From Prevotella sp. (GTDB lineage Bacteria > Bacteroidota > Bacteroidia > Bacteroidales > Bacteroidaceae): a stretch of 38,968 bases of DNA. The notes below the pieces were generated by a model. That model was not told the DNA's origin, did not search any database, and saw only the letters and a list, made by a program, of their open reading frames with translations. The stretch is from positions 1 through 38,968 of the forward strand of contig JAGCPK010000053.1 in NCBI GenBank assembly GCA_017965725.1, written 5' to 3'. The position numbers and the translations under genes were made by a program. Shown here in pieces: positions 493 through 12,470 of this stretch (within the stretch, counting starts at the first letter, position 1; every line of letters begins with the position of its first letter).

Positions 493-558
493 ATTATCAC
501 CGGTACGCCACATACTGATTCCTCGTGCTTTCCAGTCTGATCAACTCATAAAATCAGT

Positions 559-600
559 GAATTATCCGACAAATTTTGAAATTGTCGGATAATTCTTTTA
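559..600 (+). terminator. Hairpin followed by T-rich tract; probable terminator overlapping an operator-like dyad
   Basis: A perfect 14-bp stem (559-572 with 582-595) encloses a 9-nt loop, and the RNA after it is U-rich (TTTTATCG then a T run). It would end transcription of the hydrolase gene. The core of the stem is also the inverted repeat CGACA-N11-TGTCG (567-587 region), which recurs at 2351-2371, so the sequence may do both jobs. The termination role is inference from shape. Confidence 0.5.
567..587. promoter_or_regulatory. Operator-like inverted repeat, copy 1 (CGACA-N11-TGTCG)
   Basis: CGACA at 567-571 and TGTCG at 583-587 form an inverted repeat with an 11-bp spacer. Its last base lies 44 bp before the first base of the TATCTTTG box at 631. 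An identical pair of half-sites with identical spacing and identical distance to a TATCTTTG box lies at 2351-2371. No -33 TTTG is seen in the promoter that follows, which would suit an activator-dependent promoter. Binding by the adjacent AraC-type regulator is inference. Confidence 0.55.
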
Positions 601-630
601 TCGTTTTTCTTTTTTCTAACGGTTTTTGTC

Positions 631-638
631 TATCTTTG
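631..638 (+). promoter_or_regulatory. -7 box TATCTTTG of the Kelch-AraC regulator gene
   Basis: Exact match to the Bacteroidota TAnnTTTG consensus, 37 bp before the ATG at 675. No TTG/TTTG element is found about 20 bp upstream (the region is a T-rich run), so the promoter may need the upstream dyad and an activator. Confidence 0.6.
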
Positions 639-674
639 TATCCGGTAATCTAAAAATAGATTGTTTGGTTAGAC

Positions 675-2345
675 ATGAGACAGCCATTTCAACTCATTCT
701 ATTATTCATAGCCTTGCTAACTACATCGCATACAGATGGTGCTGATAAGGTGAAATGTCCTGTTGTCAAGGTGGAGGTTGAAAGGTTGCCTGACATGAAC
801 GTTCCCCGTAGTGGACATTCTGTTTTCGTGGCGAATGGAGAGGTAACCGTTGCGGGTGGTCATACTTCTGGCTTCGTACTTACGCCCACGGCGGAGTATT
901 TCAAGGAAGGCGAATGGCATCTGTTGCATACCGTCTATACTCACGATGGCGGAATATCGATTGAGATGAAGTCGGGAAAGGTGCTGTTAGCCGGCGGATT
1001 CAAGGACAATCTGGGTATCGGACAGAGTTTCGAGGTTGAACTATACAATCCTGCGACGCATCAGTTTATGGGCTTTGGCTGTCTTGATCAGAAGCGCGCC
1101 TCTGGTGCTGCAATGGAACTCGACAGCGGACGTGTGGTGATAGCAGGCAACTGGTATGCTGACGATGCCATTGAAGTTTTCGATGGTAAGACTACATTCT
1201 CGCATGCCAGAAATGTATCACAATCACGTAGTCTTCCCCATATTTTCCGTACCTCGGATGGCGATGCAATGATTCTTGCTGGCTACGATAATCATGGAAG
1301 CCATATCGATACGATTGTCATCGACAGATTTTATGGAGATCCTTTCACTAATGAGTTGTTTGATAATTGGAAACCACTGCAATATGACTTGGCGCAACAC
1401 AGTGATGACAGTTTTATCGGTGACGAGTCAAAGGGGGAGTGTCGTTATCTGATGCCTGTAGAGAATAAAGAAGGGCAATTGGCTATCGTTGATGTACGTG
1501 ACACTATCTTCACTCCTTTGCCTACAATATGTTCCGTGCCGACGGAAAGTCAGTGGGGACGAATCAAATACATCACTCCTGTGTATGTCGATCGTCAACA
1601 TCAACGTGGCTATGTCGTCGGCTTCGACGAGACAAACCGTTTGTATGCGCTCAGCATCGATTACGCAAAAACCCCAGCCCCCTTAGTCCTCTATTATACT
1701 GACCCTCTGCCTGAGGCTGGCATGAGAACCATCCCAGTATTGACGACAGAAGGCAATCTGATGTTGACAGGTGGTATCGGCACAGAACCGAATAGCAATT
1801 TCTCGCCACTGGCTTCTGTATGGCTACTGCGATTCAATGATATGGACTCCAGCGCAACGGGTGGTTTTAATAAATGGATGTGGAGTATTTGTGCTTTACT
1901 ATTATTGACGATCCTTATTGCTTGTCTCTTATGGTGCAGAAAGCCAAAGGAGCTTCCCGTGTCCGAGGAACCTGCTGTATCCGCTCCTGCAAAAGGTAAT
2001 GCCAGATTGATGCAGCGAATATGTGAACTGATGGAGAATCAGCATATTTATCTTCAGCAAGGCCTGAAGGTTTCGGATATTGCATCAGCCCTTGGTACCA
2101 ATAGCCGGTATATCTCAGATTGTATAAGGGCGGAAAGAGGTTGTTCATTGACGAAGTTTGTCAATGAGTTCCGTGTGGAACATGCCAAACGCTTGATGAT
2201 TGAACATCCGGAAAAGAAGATGTCGGCTGTTGCGATGGAGTCAGGATTTTCCAACGACAAGGCCCTTGCACGTTGTTTTAAGGAACTGACCGACCTTACC
2301 CCGACGGAGTGGAAGACACAAAGCATGAGCACCCCAAAACAGTAA
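675..2345 (+). CDS. Membrane-spanning regulator: periplasmic Kelch-like propeller, TM helix, cytoplasmic AraC-type HTH
   Basis: 556 aa. Residues 1-22 form a signal peptide or first membrane anchor. Residues about 35-390 carry Kelch-type blades, seen as recurring Gly-Gly or Ala-Gly turns followed by an aromatic strand (VTVAGGHTSG near 57, KVLLAGGF near 102, RVVIAGNW near 153, AMILAGY near 198, NLMLTGGIG near 361). Residues about 402-421 are a hydrophobic helix ending in CR, giving a stop-transfer. Residues about 447-547 are an AraC/XylS DNA-binding domain with both helix-turn-helix motifs (LKVSDIASALGTNSRYIS; MSAVAMESGFSNDKALARCF) and the typical TPTEW end. There is no kinase or receiver domain, so sensing and DNA binding sit in one chain, unlike the hybrid two-component systems common in the phylum. 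The ligand is unknown. It lies upstream of, and probably controls, the secreted-protein pair that follows, because both promoters carry the same dyad. Confidence 0.8.
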   Translation: MRQPFQLILLFIALLTTSHTDGADKVKCPVVKVEVERLPDMNVPRSGHSVFVANGEVTVAGGHTSGFVLTPTAEYFKEGEWHLLHTVYTHDGGISIEMKSGKVLLAGGFKDNLGIGQSFEVELYNPATHQFMGFGCLDQKRASGAAMELDSGRVVIAGNWYADDAIEVFDGKTTFSHARNVSQSRSLPHIFRTSDGDAMILAGYDNHGSHIDTIVIDRFYGDPFTNELFDNWKPLQYDLAQHSDDSFIGDESKGECRYLMPVENKEGQLAIVDVRDTIFTPLPTICSVPTESQWGRIKYITPVYVDRQHQRGYVVGFDETNRLYALSIDYAKTPAPLVLYYTDPLPEAGMRTIPVLTTEGNLMLTGGIGTEPNSNFSPLASVWLLRFNDMDSSATGGFNKWMWSICALLLLTILIACLLWCRKPKELPVSEEPAVSAPAKGNARLMQRICELMENQHIYLQQGLKVSDIASALGTNSRYISDCIRAERGCSLTKFVNEFRVEHAKRLMIEHPEKKMSAVAMESGFSNDKALARCFKELTDLTPTEWKTQSMSTPKQ

Positions 2346-2350
2346 TCGTG

Positions 2351-2371
2351 CGACATTTTCCGAATTTGTCG
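2351..2371. promoter_or_regulatory. Operator-like inverted repeat, copy 2 (CGACA-N11-TGTCG)
   Basis: CGACA at 2351-2355 and TGTCG at 2367-2371 with an 11-bp spacer, starting 6 bp after the stop codon of the regulator gene. The distance from its end to the TATCTTTG box at 2415 is 44 bp, the same as at copy 1 (567-587 to 631). The 11-bp spacers differ in sequence and this copy cannot form the long hairpin of copy 1, so it is not simply a duplicated terminator. Confidence 0.55.
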
Positions 2372-2414
2372 TAGAGTTTTCCTTAAATAGTACTTACATA
2401 TTACTTCTTTTCCT

Positions 2415-2422
2415 TATCTTTG
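2415..2422 (+). promoter_or_regulatory. -7 box TATCTTTG of the secreted-protein operon
   Basis: Matches TAnnTTTG, 31 bp before the ATG at 2454. The expected -33 position (about 2392-2395) has no TTG. The dyad at 2351-2371 lies 44 bp upstream. Confidence 0.6.
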
Positions 2423-2453: not shown

Positions 2454-2927
2454 ATGAATAGAAAGAGACTATTAATGCTGATGTTTCTGGCATTGCCGAT
2501 AGGAGTGCTAGCAGACAATCTCAACACACTCATCGTCAAGATGAAAAATGGTAACGAGACGATGTTCTTCCTGAAAGATAAACCAAAGGTCACATTCGAA
2601 GGCACTGACCTTAAGATTGTCTCAGATAATAAAACTGTAACAATTGCCCTTAGCGACGTGCTCCGTTTCGGTTACGCCAAGAAAGATCCTGCTGGCATTA
2701 ACGAGACAGTCATTGACCCCACGGATGTTTCTTTTCAGGATGGTGTACTCGTCATTAGTCAACTCAAGGTTGGAGCCTCCGTTTGCATCTATGCCTTAGA
2801 TGGAAAATTGCTTCGCCAACTTACTGCTCAACGCTCAGGCACCTATCGCCTCAGCCTCTCCGAACTGCCCACAGGGCTGTATCTCGTAAAGGCCGACAAC
2901 GTCACTTATAAAATCACAAAGCAATGA
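2454..2927 (+). CDS. Small secreted protein with C-terminal sorting-domain-like module
   Basis: 157 aa. Residues 1-20 are a signal peptide ending GVLA. Residues about 23-75 hold a strand-rich unit (NTLIVKMKNGNETMFFL, then VTIALSDVLRFGY) of a kind often found at the N-terminus of Bacteroidota secreted proteins. Residues about 107-157 (SVCIYALDGKLLRQL, then LPTGLYLVKADNVTYKITK) match the pattern of type IX secretion C-terminal sorting domains, with the usual G-[LV]-Y-[LIV] strand and a Lys-rich end. The stop overlaps the next start (ATGA at 2924-2927), so the two are translationally coupled. Export by T9SS is inference; no T9SS gene is in the window. Enzymatic function is not evident. Confidence 0.65.
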   Translation: MNRKRLLMLMFLALPIGVLADNLNTLIVKMKNGNETMFFLKDKPKVTFEGTDLKIVSDNKTVTIALSDVLRFGYAKKDPAGINETVIDPTDVSFQDGVLVISQLKVGASVCIYALDGKLLRQLTAQRSGTYRLSLSELPTGLYLVKADNVTYKITKQ

Positions 2928-5900
2928 AGACACATTACACATTATTATATTTACTGACAGCCTTTCTGTCAGTATTTGCGTTGCCAGCCGACGCGCAGCA
3001 GACGCAGGATGCGCTTTACATTTTCCGCAATGATGGAGGCTTTAATGCCTTCTTCTATGCCGACATCGACCGTATCGAGTATTCTAAGATCGACACGTTT
3101 GGCGTTGAGCAAAGCGATTATGTGGTACAAGAGGTCTATGCCCTCGACAGTTGTTTCCGCATCCCCATTTCTGCCATCGATTCAGTGGCCTTTGTCACAC
3201 CTGAGACGGAGTACAAGGCTGACGTCAACCTTATTGACAGGAGCATAAGTGACTATATCGTGGCCTCAGACTCATCATCCTGGTTCCGTCTGTCTTCGAG
3301 TACCCCGTCATCGCTCATCCCGAAGAAGGGCGATAAGATGGTTATTAAAGACCGTAGCATTTACTTGCCCTACGGTATGGGAGGCATTGTGGCTTCGGTA
3401 GATAATGGCAGCGAGGGGGTTACCGTTACAATAGAAAAGGCTGAACTTAGCGATATCTACGATCGGCTTGTGTTAAAGTTTGCAGGTGGCGAAAATGGCA
3501 ACAATACTCGTGCCATAAACCGTATAGCATTCGAAGACGTCGATTTACCAAAAGTATCTGGAACCTATCAGATAGAAGGTTCTATAGAAGCCATCAAGGC
3601 TCTTAAGGAAACAACCTCCGTTTCAATTGACGGTATGGGCAGTTTGTCATGCAGCATTAAACCACACATCAATGCCCTCCGTGCTTTTCTTGTCTTAGAG
3701 AAAGGATCCCTGTCCCCCATATCGGATTTCTTTTTAGATAGCCAGTTTGAAAACAATATTCAACTCAATCTTAAAGGAGGCTTCACCGCTCGAATAGAAG
3801 TACCGCTCGGAGGGAAAGAGTATTCCTATGAAAACTGTGAAATGAATACTTCTTATGGCCCGTTCATTGAGGTCAGCAAGTCAGGCATGCTGAATTACGA
3901 ATGGTCTAACACAACGGGATACACTGTCTCCTTAGGCTATTCCAAAGGTCATCCATCATTTATATTTGAATCCGAAACACTCAATGGAATTTCATCTTTC
4001 AAGAACATTGAAAGTGAGATTACGGCCACTATCGGCAACTATGGAAAAGTAGAGATCGAACTCAAAGACGTGGAAAACCTGGGATTCAAATTCGTATTAG
4101 GCCTCGACTTCGGCATTAAAGCAGAAAGTCATGATCCCGTTACAGCGAAGAACATCGCCGACATGGATTTTGAGGATACTTGGAAGCTGTACGAGAAACT
4201 CAATAAAGACACGCTCATCTATATAAACAACCCCATCGTCAATTACCAGTGTACATGGGCGGTAGGGCCCTATACCAATGGCTCCCCCAAAACGCTGGGA
4301 AGCAAGCAACTCTTCATCTTCGGGCGTGTGCCGAACTTTAGCGATATCGATTGGGAATTGGACGAGAAATGCCCGTGGCGGGGAAAGTTAAAGTCGAAAA
4401 TCAAGAATCGCAATATGTGGGAGCCTGTGCCCTATGGCTTTATCGTCCAAGAGCAGGAAACAGGCAAGACTGTCGATATCTGGTATGATGATAAAGGATA
4501 TGAGGGTGGTGAGTTCACGATGGAGTACACCTTCGAAGGATTGGATCCTGACAAGAAATATGTGGGCACGCCCATCATGGAGCATCGTGGCATGCCAATG
4601 ATGGCCGATATAGAAAAAGAGTTCACCCTCGGTCCACCAATGATTCTGATGGATAATCGCAAGATAGAGCTACCAGAGGTTGAAGGTACTAAGACCCTGC
4701 CGCTTAAGACCAACATCAGCGACCTGCGCTATACGTCGGATGCTGATTGGTTTGAGTTCACCTATTATAAGGAGCTTGCGGAGATTCACATTATCTACGA
4801 CGCGCTGCCAGATCAATTGGAGTTGCGCGAGGCAACCATCGTTGGCGTGGGATACGACAGCGAGGGCAACGAGATAGGCCGCGACGAGATTACCGTCATT
4901 CAAAAGCGCCTTAATATCAACAATCTCAAACTATCGCCTGCGGAATTCAAGATTGGAGTCAAGGGTGATACCAAGACCGTGACTGTCAGCTCTATCAATG
5001 TCAGCAACATTCAGGTATCTACGAAGCAAAACTTCATTCATCCGACTATCAAGGACAATATCATCACCATCGTCACAGACGAAAACCCAGGAGAGGATGA
5101 AAGAGAAGGTGAAGTGGAGGTAAGCGGCATATTGACTGACACTAACCAGAAGATAGAGCGCTACATCTATATTACCCAAGACGGTACTGAAGACGGCAGC
5201 AGAAACGGCGAGGGACTCTTTACGAGCGGAATGGCTGCCACGAATCTGACACCCCTTGGAAGTAATTACAGTACAATCCACATGTCTGCTCCTGGAACAC
5301 AGGAGTTACACAAGGATATCGGTTACACATTGGAAAATGGCGACCAACTGCAATACCGCTCTGTCGGCTCTTGGACTGACGCTTCAAGTAGCAGTAGAAC
5401 AGACCATGCATGGAGGATTTACCTGAATATTGACAAGGGTGACGACAAATCTATCTACAGTTACAAACTGAAAGACGGAGCAGTATCTGAGCAACACCGT
5501 GTCTATAAGAAAGACTACGAAATGGATATGTTTGTACCTGATTACACCGTCACCTCTGTCTATTATCTGAAGGATCTCGACGAGACCAGGATAAGAATTG
5601 AAGAAGACGGCAGTGCAACTATTATCTTTGAGCCAGACATCGATGTAACCAAATTGGCTAATTATAAGCTGACTGATTATATGACAGAGCTGAGTTACGA
5701 AAAGACTGGCGAACACCCAGAGTCTTACACGCTGAATGATGTCGTCAAGCAGAAATACGCAGGTGAATTCAATTTCGAGGCCTGGACAACCCGTATTGAG
5801 TTGAAACTTGCCGATGGAACTCCATTGTTAGAGCCAAAAGAGACGCATGTGGAGTTTGAAGACGGCTATCATTATAACCATACCATCTTCTACACCAGTA

Positions 5901-6670
5901 ACTATCTGGTATCAGACATCACCGTTACCAGCAGCGTGGACTGGATTACTATTGAAACAGTAGAAAATGCGAGATTTATCTTCAGAGTTCCTATCAATGA
6001 CAGCCAGAGTGACCGCGAGGGCTATATCTATCTCTCAGGCAAATTGCCCAACGGCCAAACTATCACACGCACTATACCAGTGAAGCAGCCCTATACCAGA
6101 ATCTTTGATGATCGTTGGGAAACATCGGAGGACGAAAAGGCTGAACTCCCCAGCGAGGCGATACTCTCCGAGTTAGCCAATCACGGCATGCAACTTCATA
6201 TTGAAGCCACTCCTCCTGCCATCAACGGTGTATTTGAGATGCATCCTGCCATCCTGCTATACACCAACAAGCCAGAGGCAGGCCAGGCAGGCGACATCTT
6301 CGAGGGATCCTATATCTTCAAGATTGCCACCCAAAACGAAGGGGAACCACGCGCCAAGCTGGGAATCTATCAGGAAGCAGGTGAATATACTGCACCAGCT
6401 GATGAGTACGTCTGCTACCTCGGGGGCTCAGGCAATAAGTTCACCATCTCAAACATCAAGACTTTAACAAACGACGATCCGTTAGGAACATATACTATCA
6501 CCTACGTAACGGTAGTCTCAGGAGAGGTGGACGGTAACAACATCAAGAACCTGCAATATGGGGTAGTCTATCTCAATGAGGACGGCACCATCGACGAAGT
6601 CTATCTCAGTGAAGATCAGGATGGTGTGAGTGGGCCTGCGAGTTGGAATCCAGGTGAGCCTTGGGATTAA
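2924..6670 (+). CDS. Large secreted protein with BACON-like beta-sandwich modules
   Basis: 1248 aa with a clear signal peptide (residues 1-25, ending ADAQ). Residues about 28-95 repeat the strand unit seen in the upstream gene (ALYIFRNDGGFNAFFYADID). The middle (about 95-560) is beta-rich and I do not recognise it. Three stretches look like BACON or related Ig-type modules: about 585-665, 663-752 (ending IERYIYITQDG) and 964-1056 (SSVDWITIE, then TRTIPVKQP). The C-terminus (GPASWNPGEPWD) lacks a sorting domain and there is no lipobox. BACON modules usually sit next to carbohydrate-active or mucin-binding parts, but no catalytic domain can be named here. Translation is coupled to the 157-aa gene by a 4-bp overlap, and both are probably driven by the promoter at 2415. 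Confidence 0.65.
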   Translation: MKTHYTLLYLLTAFLSVFALPADAQQTQDALYIFRNDGGFNAFFYADIDRIEYSKIDTFGVEQSDYVVQEVYALDSCFRIPISAIDSVAFVTPETEYKADVNLIDRSISDYIVASDSSSWFRLSSSTPSSLIPKKGDKMVIKDRSIYLPYGMGGIVASVDNGSEGVTVTIEKAELSDIYDRLVLKFAGGENGNNTRAINRIAFEDVDLPKVSGTYQIEGSIEAIKALKETTSVSIDGMGSLSCSIKPHINALRAFLVLEKGSLSPISDFFLDSQFENNIQLNLKGGFTARIEVPLGGKEYSYENCEMNTSYGPFIEVSKSGMLNYEWSNTTGYTVSLGYSKGHPSFIFESETLNGISSFKNIESEITATIGNYGKVEIELKDVENLGFKFVLGLDFGIKAESHDPVTAKNIADMDFEDTWKLYEKLNKDTLIYINNPIVNYQCTWAVGPYTNGSPKTLGSKQLFIFGRVPNFSDIDWELDEKCPWRGKLKSKIKNRNMWEPVPYGFIVQEQETGKTVDIWYDDKGYEGGEFTMEYTFEGLDPDKKYVGTPIMEHRGMPMMADIEKEFTLGPPMILMDNRKIELPEVEGTKTLPLKTNISDLRYTSDADWFEFTYYKELAEIHIIYDALPDQLELREATIVGVGYDSEGNEIGRDEITVIQKRLNINNLKLSPAEFKIGVKGDTKTVTVSSINVSNIQVSTKQNFIHPTIKDNIITIVTDENPGEDEREGEVEVSGILTDTNQKIERYIYITQDGTEDGSRNGEGLFTSGMAATNLTPLGSNYSTIHMSAPGTQELHKDIGYTLENGDQLQYRSVGSWTDASSSSRTDHAWRIYLNIDKGDDKSIYSYKLKDGAVSEQHRVYKKDYEMDMFVPDYTVTSVYYLKDLDETRIRIEEDGSATIIFEPDIDVTKLANYKLTDYMTELSYEKTGEHPESYTLNDVVKQKYAGEFNFEAWTTRIELKLADGTPLLEPKETHVEFEDGYHYNHTIFYTSNYLVSDITVTSSVDWITIETVENARFIFRVPINDSQSDREGYIYLSGKLPNGQTITRTIPVKQPYTRIFDDRWETSEDEKAELPSEAILSELANHGMQLHIEATPPAINGVFEMHPAILLYTNKPEAGQAGDIFEGSYIFKIATQNEGEPRAKLGIYQEAGEYTAPADEYVCYLGGSGNKFTISNIKTLTNDDPLGTYTITYVTVVSGEVDGNNIKNLQYGVVYLNEDGTIDEVYLSEDQDGVSGPASWNPGEPWD

Positions 6671-6756: not shown

Positions 6757-7036
6757 TTCATACCTTACCCCAGGGGGGTGAATGATGCCTGAAATTCAGT
6801 TCATATTTTACCCCGCTGGGAATTTCATGTCTGAAATCTGGTTCATACCTTACCCCAGGGGGGTGAATGATGCCTGAGATTCAGTTCACACTTTACCCCG
6901 GTGGGAATATCATGCCCGAAATCTGGTTCAAACTTTACCCCAGGGGGAATATCATACCTGAGATTCGGTTCATACTTTACCCCAGGGGGGTATATGATGC
7001 CTGAGATTCAGGGCTGCTTTTACCCCGGTGGGATGA
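6757..7036. repeat. Minisatellite of 42/43-bp units between convergent genes
   Basis: Six full units start at 6757, 6800, 6842, 6885, 6927 and 6969, followed by a partial one from 7012; a degenerate tail of an earlier unit (GTGATGCGCCACAGATTCGG) precedes them. Each unit reads approximately TTCATACTTTACCCC, a G-run, then ATGCCTGARATTCAG. Units 1 and 3 differ by one base, while units 2 and 4 share a different G-run (GCTGGG/GGTGGG) and end in AAATCTGG, so there is an 85-bp higher-order period. Each unit contains a CCCC/GGGG dyad and many also a CTGAAATTCAG-type dyad. Most of the 383-bp gap between 6670 and 7054 is this array; 6671-6737 holds nothing I recognise. Confidence 0.85.
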
Positions 7037-7053
7037 AGAAAGAACCAATCGTA

Positions 7054-9432
7054 TCACATACGAGCCTTCTGCTTTTCGCCTGCACCAGAGCCACGGTACT
7101 TCGAGCGGGCCTCGTTGAATTTCCACGTCAAGTCGAGTGAGAACGTTCGACGGGCCGGGTTACGGACGGAGATTTCGCGGAAGCCGTAGAGGGTGGCGTC
7201 AGTCTTACTCATATTGAGGATATCATCACAGCGCAGGTCAGCCGTCAGCGTACCAAGGCTCTTGAGGTTGAAGTCGCGCTGGATGCCTATGCTCGTATAA
7301 AAGCGGCAGGCAGTGATGCGGTTATTATTGTAATCGCCGTGCGAAGCCCACTGCATGTAAGCATTCAGGCGGAAGTTCTTGGGCAGTTCGATGTCGTTCT
7401 GCCACGTGAGGGTCAGATACGGCTTATTGAGGGTCAGGATAGAACCGTCAGCCGTAGGCGACTTATAATTCTGGAAGATGGTATAGACGTACCACATGGG
7501 GTGCCAGCAGCCAATGGTAGGACGGGCAGAGAGGCTGACGGCAAACTGGTTGTAATCCTCTGTGCTGTTGATGGGGCGCACGAGGCTCACAAGGGGATCG
7601 TCAGAGCCAGGATAGGGTTCTGTTGACATGGTGACCGCGTTCTTGATACGACCATAGTTCAGCGAGAGGTTAGCCCATTTGTAGCCGACATTCAGCACGA
7701 GGCTGTGCGTATAGGTAGGCAACAGGTAGGGGTTACCGCTCTGGAACGTATAACGGTTCAGATAGATCGTCGAACTGGTGAGGTTGCCATAGGCGGGGCG
7801 CTGGATGTCACGACGATAAGAAAGTGACATCTGTATCTTGCCTATAGGGGCTGAGATGACGGCAGTGGGGAACCAGTCGCCATAGTCGCGACAGACCTCA
7901 TTCTCTTTCTTACCGAAGTTAAAGTAGTCGTTTGTCAGATGCTCATAGCGCAGTCCTGCCTGCACAAAGACCTTGCCGAAGAGACGTCCATACTCCACGA
8001 AACCAGCAGCCGACTCCTCGTTGATCTCCGTATCCGTAGTCTTCACGGGGATGGCCTCCGTCGATGTGAAGTCATAGGCATCTGTGCGATGGTTGTAGGA
8101 GTACTCACCACCCACGGAGAGGTTTCCATTCAACACGGGATAAGAGAAGATGAGTTTCGAAGCCCAGAAATTATTGCCGCTGATGGTGTTGCTCTCCATC
8201 TTACGGGATGTTTGCTGTTGTGGCACAGCAACAGACTGAACGGAAGAGGTTTGCTCTGTGGTGCTGCCAGGAGTCTTCGTATCGTCGAAGAGACCATCGA
8301 TGTTGAGGTCGATACCTAGTTGTCCCACCTTACCATTATAATAGGCGTTGAAGATATGCTTCTTGAAACTCTCGTCCTGCCAGATATTACTCTCGGAACG
8401 CTCTTTAAATTTGCCGTTCTCGTAGGTGTCGGTACAGAAGAAACTCTTCAGTTCGCCACTAGGACGACGGTCGTACTTGTAGAAGGCACCAAAACTGTGG
8501 TTCTCGTTCACCATGTAGTTGATCTGGATTTGTGGCGACCAACCCTTCCAGTCGTGCGTCGTCTCCTGCGTGGTATAGCCATCGATACGGTCTGGACCCA
8601 CGTAATAGAGCAGGTCGTTGTCCTGCAGACCTTTGTAGTGGCGATCATCTCCAGCCCACAGCGAGGCGGTGACGTCGAGACCACCCGTGCGGTAGTTCAC
8701 GTCGAGGTTGTTGGTAAACGCGTTTCCGTACTGGTAGAGGTAACCAGCATTATCACGGAAACTGAAGCCATCACCCTGTGCCTTCTTCAGTGTGATACGC
8801 ACCACAGCCTTCGTGGAGGCAGCATAGCGGGCACCAGGATTCTGCACCACATCGACATGCTGTATCTGTTCGGAGCGCAGACGGGTGAGTTCACTGAGAT
8901 CCTGCACCCTACGACCGTTGATATACACCTCGGCATCGCCGCGCCCCAGCACCTTGACGGCACCGTCGCGTTCGGCTTCCAATGATGGGATACGCTTCAG
9001 AGCATCGCTCACGGTTCCGGCCTTCTCCAAGATCGTTCCTGCGACAGTGGTACGCATGGCGTCGCCCTTCACGTGGGTTTTGGGTAACTGTCCCTTTACC
9101 ACCACCTCGCCCAGCAGTTGGGTGTCTTCCTTCATCTGGATGGTCAGATCCTGACCTGCCTTCATATATAAGGTCTGATAACCGACACTCGTCACCTTGA
9201 ACAGACCTTCATTAACATCTGTCACAATCTTAAACACACCCTGATCATCTGTCATGGCACCCTGCACGAAGGCAGAGTCGGGCAGCGACAGGAGCACCAC
9301 GTTTACAAACGGCATGGGCTCACCCTTTTCATCTATCACCTTACCGCCCCAATCCTGGGTCTTACCCTGTGCCGTCATGGACATCATCAGGGCTGTTAAT
9401 AATGCTACTGACCAAAAAATAATTCTTTTCAT
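7054..9432 (-). CDS. TonB-dependent outer-membrane receptor with carboxypeptidase-regulatory-like N-domain
   Basis: 792 aa from the ATG at 9432. A longer open frame reaches 9537, but its extra 35 residues lack signal character and overlap the promoter, while the chosen start gives a good signal peptide (MKRIIFWSVALLTALMMSMTAQG). Residues about 25-105 are a CarboxypepD_reg-like domain (GGKVIDEKGEPMPFVNV), residues about 110-215 a plug domain (VSDALKRIPSLE, VYINGRR, IQHVDVVQNPGARY), and the rest an outer-membrane beta-barrel of the type that ends in a Phe-rich strand (FSLDLTWKFNEA) followed by a short basic tail. There is no SusD-like partner, so it is not a classical glycan-utilisation pair; the cargo could be a peptide, metal chelate or vitamin. 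Two GTTGCAAC palindromes flank its -7 box. Confidence 0.85.
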   Translation of the reverse strand: MKRIIFWSVALLTALMMSMTAQGKTQDWGGKVIDEKGEPMPFVNVVLLSLPDSAFVQGAMTDDQGVFKIVTDVNEGLFKVTSVGYQTLYMKAGQDLTIQMKEDTQLLGEVVVKGQLPKTHVKGDAMRTTVAGTILEKAGTVSDALKRIPSLEAERDGAVKVLGRGDAEVYINGRRVQDLSELTRLRSEQIQHVDVVQNPGARYAASTKAVVRITLKKAQGDGFSFRDNAGYLYQYGNAFTNNLDVNYRTGGLDVTASLWAGDDRHYKGLQDNDLLYYVGPDRIDGYTTQETTHDWKGWSPQIQINYMVNENHSFGAFYKYDRRPSGELKSFFCTDTYENGKFKERSESNIWQDESFKKHIFNAYYNGKVGQLGIDLNIDGLFDDTKTPGSTTEQTSSVQSVAVPQQQTSRKMESNTISGNNFWASKLIFSYPVLNGNLSVGGEYSYNHRTDAYDFTSTEAIPVKTTDTEINEESAAGFVEYGRLFGKVFVQAGLRYEHLTNDYFNFGKKENEVCRDYGDWFPTAVISAPIGKIQMSLSYRRDIQRPAYGNLTSSTIYLNRYTFQSGNPYLLPTYTHSLVLNVGYKWANLSLNYGRIKNAVTMSTEPYPGSDDPLVSLVRPINSTEDYNQFAVSLSARPTIGCWHPMWYVYTIFQNYKSPTADGSILTLNKPYLTLTWQNDIELPKNFRLNAYMQWASHGDYNNNRITACRFYTSIGIQRDFNLKSLGTLTADLRCDDILNMSKTDATLYGFREISVRNPARRTFSLDLTWKFNEARSKYRGSGAGEKQKARM

Positions 9433-11903: not shown

Positions 11904-12470
11904 TTATTTATTCTTCAGTTCCGGATTCACAAAGCGCTTCGGCTTCTCAGTGACCTTTGTGCTGTCGGCATCACCAGAGCGGGTGCGTGCCCAGTAGTAG
12001 TCACCGTACCAACTGCTATAGCCCCAGCGATAGTCGTCCCAGTAAGTGTAAGGATGGCTGGTGTTGTAGAGTTCGAAATCAACAGCGTGGCCGTCCTCGT
12101 AGATGGTGCCATAGAAGCGGGAAGAACTGAGATGATAATCGCGGATCTCCAACGAAGTATCCTCCTCAACGAAATAGACGTAGATGACGCCGTTCTTCAC
12201 TCTCCAGTCGATATGATTGGCCACGTAGTCCCAGGGAGCGTTGCTGTAGTAATCTACCCAGTAGCCTGCGCCGCTGGCATAGGTATATGGATCCCTCAGG
12301 AACGTCACCTCGGTATAGGTGGCATCGTAGGTCCGACCATCCCAATAAGAGGAAATATACATGTTACCTTTCCAGGTTCCTTCCAAGGTCTCGGCGATAT
12401 ATTCATCCTCGCAAGAGGTGAAGGCCAGTGCCATCATCGCCATCATCAGTATTGTGTAGATCTTCTTCAT
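11904..12470 (-). CDS. Small exported lipoprotein of unknown function
   Basis: 188 aa. Signal peptide with lipobox ending FTSC (Cys20), followed by EDE. The mature part is rich in Tyr and Trp and begins LEGTWKGNMYISS, which resembles the opening of lipocalin-like lipoprotein domains; the following strands (TEVTFLRD, IYVYFVEED, FYGTIYEDG, HAVDFELY) suggest a small beta barrel. Polar Lys-rich tail. It has its own promoter (TACTTTTG at 12530-12523) and shares a terminator with kdgK. I do not recognise a specific family. Confidence 0.75.
   Translation of the reverse strand: MKKIYTILMMAMMALAFTSCEDEYIAETLEGTWKGNMYISSYWDGRTYDATYTEVTFLRDPYTYASGAGYWVDYYSNAPWDYVANHIDWRVKNGVIYVYFVEEDTSLEIRDYHLSSSRFYGTIYEDGHAVDFELYNTSHPYTYWDDYRWGYSSWYGDYYWARTRSGDADSTKVTEKPKRFVNPELKNK

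Follow-up and report, generated by a model that had tools for sequence, protein, structure and literature searches.

Inverted repeats at a fixed promoter distance as probable operators of a membrane Kelch-AraC regulator in Prevotella

This locus raises the question of what an inverted repeat does on both sides of a gene for a membrane regulator. It lies in a stretch of 38,968 nucleotides, here called the window and analysed as a whole, from a Prevotella sp. of the rumen gut. The repeat, CGACA-N11-TGTCG, is found at 567-587 and 2351-2371, where the initial annotation had placed it, and a search of the whole window gave no third exact match. The count expected in the shuffled window is 0.05, and two dyads occurred in none of 100 shuffles. 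The 44-bp gap described earlier is also present, with TATCTTTG starting at 631 and 2415, in each case 44 bp past the end of a dyad (bases 587 and 2371). The Bacteroidetes promoter consensus is TTTG at -33 and TANNTTTG at -7; both window promoters have the -7 element, and by eye neither has TTTG 23-25 bp ahead of the box, so that the missing -33 is borne out as well. The two sites are unequal; the arms of operator 1 (right arm from 582) agree at 11 of 11 positions, or 14 of 15 when the arms are taken longer, and those of the degraded operator 2 (right arm from 2366) at only 6 of 11 and 8 of 15. The features, with the two dyads named as putative operators, are as follows.

558..596, + strand: operator 1, with left arm 558-572, spacer of 9, right arm 582-596 (TTGTCGGATAATTCT) and core CGACA-N11-TGTCG at 567-587
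631..638, + strand: -7 box TATCTTTG for the promoter of the regulator; the right arm of operator 1 begins 49 bp before it
675..2345, + strand: regulator, 556 aa, with an N-terminal hydrophobic segment, Kelch-type sensor, one transmembrane (TM) segment and AraC helix-turn-helix (HTH)
2346..2376, + strand: operator 2, with left arm 2346-2356, spacer of 9, right arm 2366-2376 and core 2351-2371; weaker than operator 1
2415..2422, + strand: -7 box TATCTTTG for the promoter of the cargo genes; the right arm of operator 2 begins 49 bp before it
2454..2927, + strand: cargo gene 1, 157 aa, with a Por_Secre_tail match under the Pfam cut-off (24.4 against 27 bits); by eye, its product is probably secreted
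2924..6670, + strand: cargo gene 2, 1248 aa, with a BACON domain and a 4-bp overlap with cargo gene 1

Positions 1-492 hold the 3' part of a choloylglycine hydrolase/acyltransferase-like (Ntn hydrolase) gene, interrupted by the contig end. An Rfam search of 400-2700 gave no structured-RNA match at E 0.1. In the 2.66 Mb of the same genome (85% complete), the dyad alone occurs in four places and a reversed control pattern in five, so the exact count is at chance and was dropped as evidence. The geometry, dyad plus box, was therefore used instead; at the window distance and with up to two mismatches, it is found in this genome only at the two window places (control 1).

The protein encoded between the dyads has the following parts.

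780..1844 (approximate limits, residues about 36-390), + strand: Kelch-type sensor region, from phmmer matches of residues 40-214 to SAKe propellers and KEAP1
1869..1937 (about residues 399-421), + strand: single transmembrane segment, a hydrophobic stretch between sensor and HTH, by eye
2079..2318 (residues 469-548), + strand: AraC-type HTH domain, from Pfam and PDB
2250..2282 (residues 526-536), + strand: second recognition helix SNDKALARCFK, located by its resemblance to MarA; within it, N527 and K529 show covariation with positions 4 and 5 of the half-site

The double HTH of the AraC/XylS type is recognised by Pfam past its cut-off (HTH_18, 9.9e-17; HTH_AraC, 4.2e-8). The sensor region, expected to be periplasmic, is recognised by phmmer against the PDB, at 3e-16 to the Kelch propellers of the SAKe proteins, which we take to be designed, and at about 3e-7 to KEAP1. 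The regulator also matches the chain of a hybrid two-component (HTCS) protein at 2.2e-7, and such a protein is the closest PDB match for its HTH. The window regulator has no Pfam Kelch match at E 0.01, and Kelch_1 or Kelch_6 passes the Pfam cut-off in three of seven homologues (L045, L046 and L118). At E 0.01, Pfam gave only the HTH in the window regulator, with neither histidine kinase nor receiver domain, and both were likewise absent from the seven homologues at E 1, where the matches were HTH, Kelch and weak scattered ones.

Regulators of this kind are common among the relatives. At E 1e-60 a homologue is present in 66 of 200 congeners, at 91 places, and in a family-wide draw at E 1e-40 in 15 of 151 genomes, from 7 of 30 genera. 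Two uncultured Prevotellaceae, RUG12981 and RUG443, have regulators 89% and 74% identical to that of the window. The comparison was made on 88 loci, namely 80 of the 91 places with their flanks, six loci taken because they hold a window-type site (L140 and L142-L146), L158 and the window. The 82 loci left when these six are set aside amount to 839,303 bases, the window being counted to base 12,000. Many genomes in the sample are incomplete, and the set includes close relatives (e.g. L046/L047, L053/L055, L076/L079, L050/L051 and L080/L084) that are not independent of each other.

A first scan found related dyads beside most homologous regulators, with right arms spelled TTGTTAGTC, TTGTAAGTC, TTGGCAGTC and others. 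Picking the best dyad per region with at least 9 of 11 arm positions and TG at right-arm positions 2-3, with the promoter ignored, gave 60 dyads, among which operator 2 of the window (6 of 11) is too weak to be counted. For 57 of the 60, the distance from the first base of the right arm to TANNTTTG is 48-50 bp (49 bp in 39, 50 in 15 and 48 in 3); the figure is 52 of 55 without the six site-selected loci and 48 of 51 when the window clade is removed as well. In two of the three exceptions the box is at 59 and 61, about one helical turn further, and in the third it is missing. The upstream operators of L082 and L097 have their -7 box at 61 and 59 bp, respectively. The 44-bp spacing is thus real in the window, but it is one case of a family rule of 48-50 bp from right arm to box. 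Both dyad and distance are kept beside orthologous regulators, including L158 and L045, which were found through the protein and have window-type sites, and in more distant homologues the half-sites are spelled differently but the geometry is the same. In L158, whose regulator is 89% identical, operator 1 keeps its position and the equivalent of operator 2 is better preserved, with 9 of 11 arm positions in agreement. At the downstream site, the window and L158 have TGTCGT/TGTCGC in place of TGTCGG.

In the 82 loci, dyad plus box occurs at 76 places on the strand of the regulator and at one on the opposite strand, and 68 of the 76 are directly before the regulator start or directly past its stop. 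At least one such site is found in 61 of these 82 loci of Kelch-TM-AraC regulators, unselected for site. Across all 88, 42 have a downstream site only, 12 have both, 10 an upstream site only, 3 a site far downstream and 21 none, 3 of the last being interrupted at a 3' contig end. Of 18 family-level loci, none of which served to derive the rule, 11 have a site. In seven loci (L046, L047, L060, L070, L073, L075 and L099) the stop codon of the regulator lies inside the left arm of the operator, as the TRA of the left half-site RACTRACAA, gene end and operator overlapping. L118 has two more operators downstream of its first, at 5495 and 9793, with the same TTGTGAGTC half-sites and the box at 49, and here one regulator perhaps has three neighbouring target promoters. 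In L002 (contig C30 of the genome of the window), at least four similar repeats AAGTATTCCC...AAGGGAATA stand at about 3145-3380, between a paralogous regulator and its operator.

Outside the window clade, in 48 sites, the second half-site has a third one in direct orientation 21 bp after it, scoring 6.6 of 9 matches at offset 21 against a median of 2.8 at other offsets; it was not found in nine sites of the window clade. A search of 200 congeners for the pattern GACTNNCA...TGNNAGTC with box was positive in 48, against none for the reversed control, and the regulator at E 1e-60 is present in 43 of these 48 genomes against 23 of the 152 others (p 2e-21). The five pattern-positive genomes without the regulator at this threshold are of several kinds, as G071 has one beside the operator, barely under threshold, G152 and G191 have a match at the level of the HTH only, and G070 and G082 have no regulator match at E 1e-15.

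A rival explanation is that each dyad, a hairpin with a T-run behind it, is an intrinsic terminator, one for the gene upstream and the other for the regulator gene itself. TTTTA comes after the near-perfect 15-bp arms of operator 1, a T-run likewise stands behind the right arm in many relatives, and the gene before the site, taken as the longest open reading frame (ORF), points at it in 12 of 15 upstream sites. A terminator, however, needs no promoter at a fixed 48-50 bp, nor a common half-site spelling, a direct third copy at +21 or a link to HTH identity. The upstream dyad is kept where the longest neighbouring ORF diverges (L146 and L158; L119 is ambiguous), the dyad is missing after the regulator where the cargo follows close behind (L045, L142 and L143), and in the seven loci with the stop codon within the left arm a ribosome would cover the hairpin. 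The sites thus have neither the free spelling nor the placement by the upstream gene of an intrinsic terminator. We give hardly any credence to termination as the explanation of the dyads, although they may have it as a secondary role beside that of operator.

If the dyads are operators, their position bears on the direction of control. TTTG is absent 23-25 bp ahead of the box in all 76 operator promoters (68 of 68 without the six site-selected loci), whereas it precedes about 20% of the other boxes (302) in these loci; at that rate the chance of 0 in 76 is 4e-8. The second promoter of the window is not among the 76 because its dyad is too weak for the scan. An activator needs just such an arrangement, a promoter without a -33 element and a binding site held at one distance upstream of it, and from this the regulator would be expected to activate. 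The sites could instead be operators at which the Kelch-AraC regulator represses, since a membrane protein bound to such a dyad can act as a repressor and many regulators control their own genes negatively. Repression is unlikely nevertheless, given that the site stands upstream of a promoter without the -33, the very element an activator would replace, and that the spacing is held within 2 bp at this upstream distance.

The initial annotation had also suggested autoregulation, and this fits the window clade but not most of the family. The upstream site is present in all nine loci of the clade, of which six entered the set through the site and three (the window, L045 and L158) did not, so that autoregulation is plausible for the clade on the placement of its sites. 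Among the 79 loci outside it, 42 have the downstream site only and 13 an upstream site. Of the window-clade loci with the whole gene, four of seven have the downstream site too, that of the window being counted by hand. In L045, L142 and L143 the start codon of the cargo is close behind the regulator stop and the second dyad is absent, and the cargo could thus be read from the promoter of the regulator. Among 398 congeners, 10 have the exact window-type dyad with box, at 13 places in all (the reversed control gave 2 hits), and 11 of the 13 adjoin a regulator homologue; in G257 and G266 a dyad pair about 1.8 kb apart flanks the regulator gene, as in the window. The other two (G261:C9:145462-145533 and G090:C10:5227-5299) have no regulator homologue in the stretch examined, and they are either distant targets or chance matches.

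That the adjacent AraC-type protein is the binder was put forward earlier as an inference, and comparison now supports it. Among 56 regulators, all with a found site, half-site similarity follows HTH identity when sensor identity is allowed for (partial Mantel r 0.344, p 0.0005), and it does not follow sensor identity given the HTH (r -0.10, p 0.89). The HTH link stands without the site-selected loci (r 0.33, p 0.0005; 52 regulators), is weaker without the window clade (r 0.21, p 0.014; 49) and is r 0.19 (p 0.03; 43) when near-duplicates are removed as well, the sensor there giving r 0.13 (p 0.08). Cargo has no such effect. For 42 regulators, pairs with unlike HTHs share 6.62 of 9 half-site positions if their cargo is related (133 pairs) and 6.82 if it is not (675 pairs), while pairs with HTH identity of at least 0.6 share 8.15 (53 pairs), as do the 33 of them with unrelated cargo. 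Without the window clade the values are 7.30, 7.32 and 8.33, respectively. The cargo of L046 is 91% identical over 717 aa to that of L119, but their HTHs have an identity of 0.43 and their half-sites differ. Since the spelling tracks the DNA-binding domain and not the secreted genes, the adjacent AraC protein is likely to be both binder and activator.

Another DNA-binding protein might be thought to bind the dyads, in view of the two window-type sites with no regulator in the stretch examined and of the pattern-positive genomes, 2 of 48 without a regulator at E 1e-15 and two more with an HTH-level match only. We consider it very unlikely, as spelling tracks the adjacent HTH and not the cargo, if less strongly without the window clade, and none of the nine other AraC-type proteins of the same genome has such a site beside it. 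Matched pairs of upstream and downstream sites were rejected as independent evidence, the p value of 0.0002 for 13 loci becoming 0.22 for the nine outside the window clade.

Within the HTH, the top covarying pair is N527 with half-site position 5; K529 is lower but within the top 18, and when the window clade is left out both still rank among the top four. The recognition helix taken as a block does not covary above the other HTH columns (p 0.12; without the window clade p 0.66) and was discarded as a covarying unit. Helix NETT goes with TTGTAA in 5 of 5 cases, ERS with CA at positions 5-6 in 5 of 5, NEMS with TTGTTA in 4 of 4 and NETS with TTA at positions 4-6 in 10 of 14. All seven NDKA regulators have TTGTCG in one arm or both, four of them having been found through the site; NDKA with TTGTCGG is seen in the window, L045, L158 and the held-out L160 and L161. 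The latter two, from another genus and 62% identical, have NDKA and TTGTCGGTC, and the held-out L177 has ERS and TCAG. L162-L164, also held out, have helix NETS but TCAG in place of the usual TTAG and break a simple code. For the ten held-out regulators of the family-level search, which are few and non-independent, half-site agreement over seven positions is 6.20 with the nearest HTH, 5.70 with the nearest sensor and 5.03 on average, the direction predicted.

The secreted genes are exchanged behind the regulator. In L158 the regulator 89% identical to that of the window, with the same operator type, is followed at 6783-8321 by a secreted protein of 512 aa that is also present in L144. The 157-aa and 1248-aa proteins of the window have relatives in L045, L145 and L107.

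Taken together, the dyads are probably operators of the protein encoded between them, a membrane Kelch-AraC activator. In the model we propose, the sites, their fixed spacing, the missing -33 and the tie between half-site and HTH come from sequence comparison, and binding, dimerisation, activation, membrane topology and signal are what we infer. The regulator would have its Kelch-type sensor outside the inner membrane, one membrane segment and its AraC-type HTH inside the cell. On a signal, two HTH domains would bind the inverted half-sites (clade consensus TTGTCGGACGA), the promoter-proximal one 49 bp ahead of a TANNTTTG -7 box that has no -33, and the bound protein would recruit RNA polymerase. 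One site would raise expression of the regulator itself, and the other would turn on the two secreted proteins.

The individual parts are known ones: operators of an AraC-type activator, a one-component membrane regulator and exchangeable secreted cargo. On balance, and with some reserve, we favour the wider view that Prevotella-like bacteria have a large class of one-component Kelch-AraC membrane switches, with rigid promoter geometry and exchanged secreted cargo, in which the operator stays with its reader and paralogues are perhaps insulated. With operator and reader kept together through changes of cargo, the helix-2 residues would form a partly readable specificity code (NDKA for TTGTCGG, ERS for NCAG, NETT for TTGTAAG, and NETS/NEMS mostly for TTAG). 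Copies in one genome often, but not always, differ in spelling and may be insulated from each other. Sites differ between the window and its paralogue on C30 and between L046 and L061 in G073; they do not between L073 and L119 in G080 or between L055 and L094 in G135. Since such copies can differ in their sites, the family lends itself to asking how paralogous regulators are kept apart. If this view is right, there is a readable link from protein to DNA site for a family of membrane regulators found in 66 of 200 sampled congeners, many secreted proteins can be assigned a controlling switch, and gut Bacteroidetes gain parts for sensing and responding.

A search by title found no literature on Kelch-AraC membrane regulators, most subscription journals lying outside its coverage. 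The closest known systems are of three kinds. AraC/XylS activators have sites that adjoin or overlap the -35/-33 region. The regulator resembles them in its two-HTH domain (HTH_18 and HTH_AraC matches) and in the position of the dyad relative to that region, but it would be anchored in the membrane with an outside Kelch domain, and its family uses inverted plus direct half-sites. ToxR and CadC are membrane-spanning one-component regulators with an outside sensor, one TM segment, an inside DNA-binding domain and no phosphotransfer, a plan that the Kelch-AraC regulator appears to share, although its HTH is of the AraC type and not a winged helix and its domain order is the opposite, sensor first. 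The HTCS of Bacteroides also join a membrane sensor to an AraC-type HTH, and their operators are predicted as direct repeats averaging 21 bp with motifs that cluster with HTH clades (PMC3878776). The grouping of motifs with HTH clades is a further likeness, as is, outside the window clade only, the direct arrangement of half-sites 2 and 3 at 21 bp. Unlike the HTCS, the Kelch-AraC regulators have no detected histidine kinase or receiver domain, carry a Kelch-type sensor in place of COG3292 and have an inverted half-site pair in the operator, in the window clade its only recognisable part, and their targets are secreted proteins and not SusC/SusD loci.
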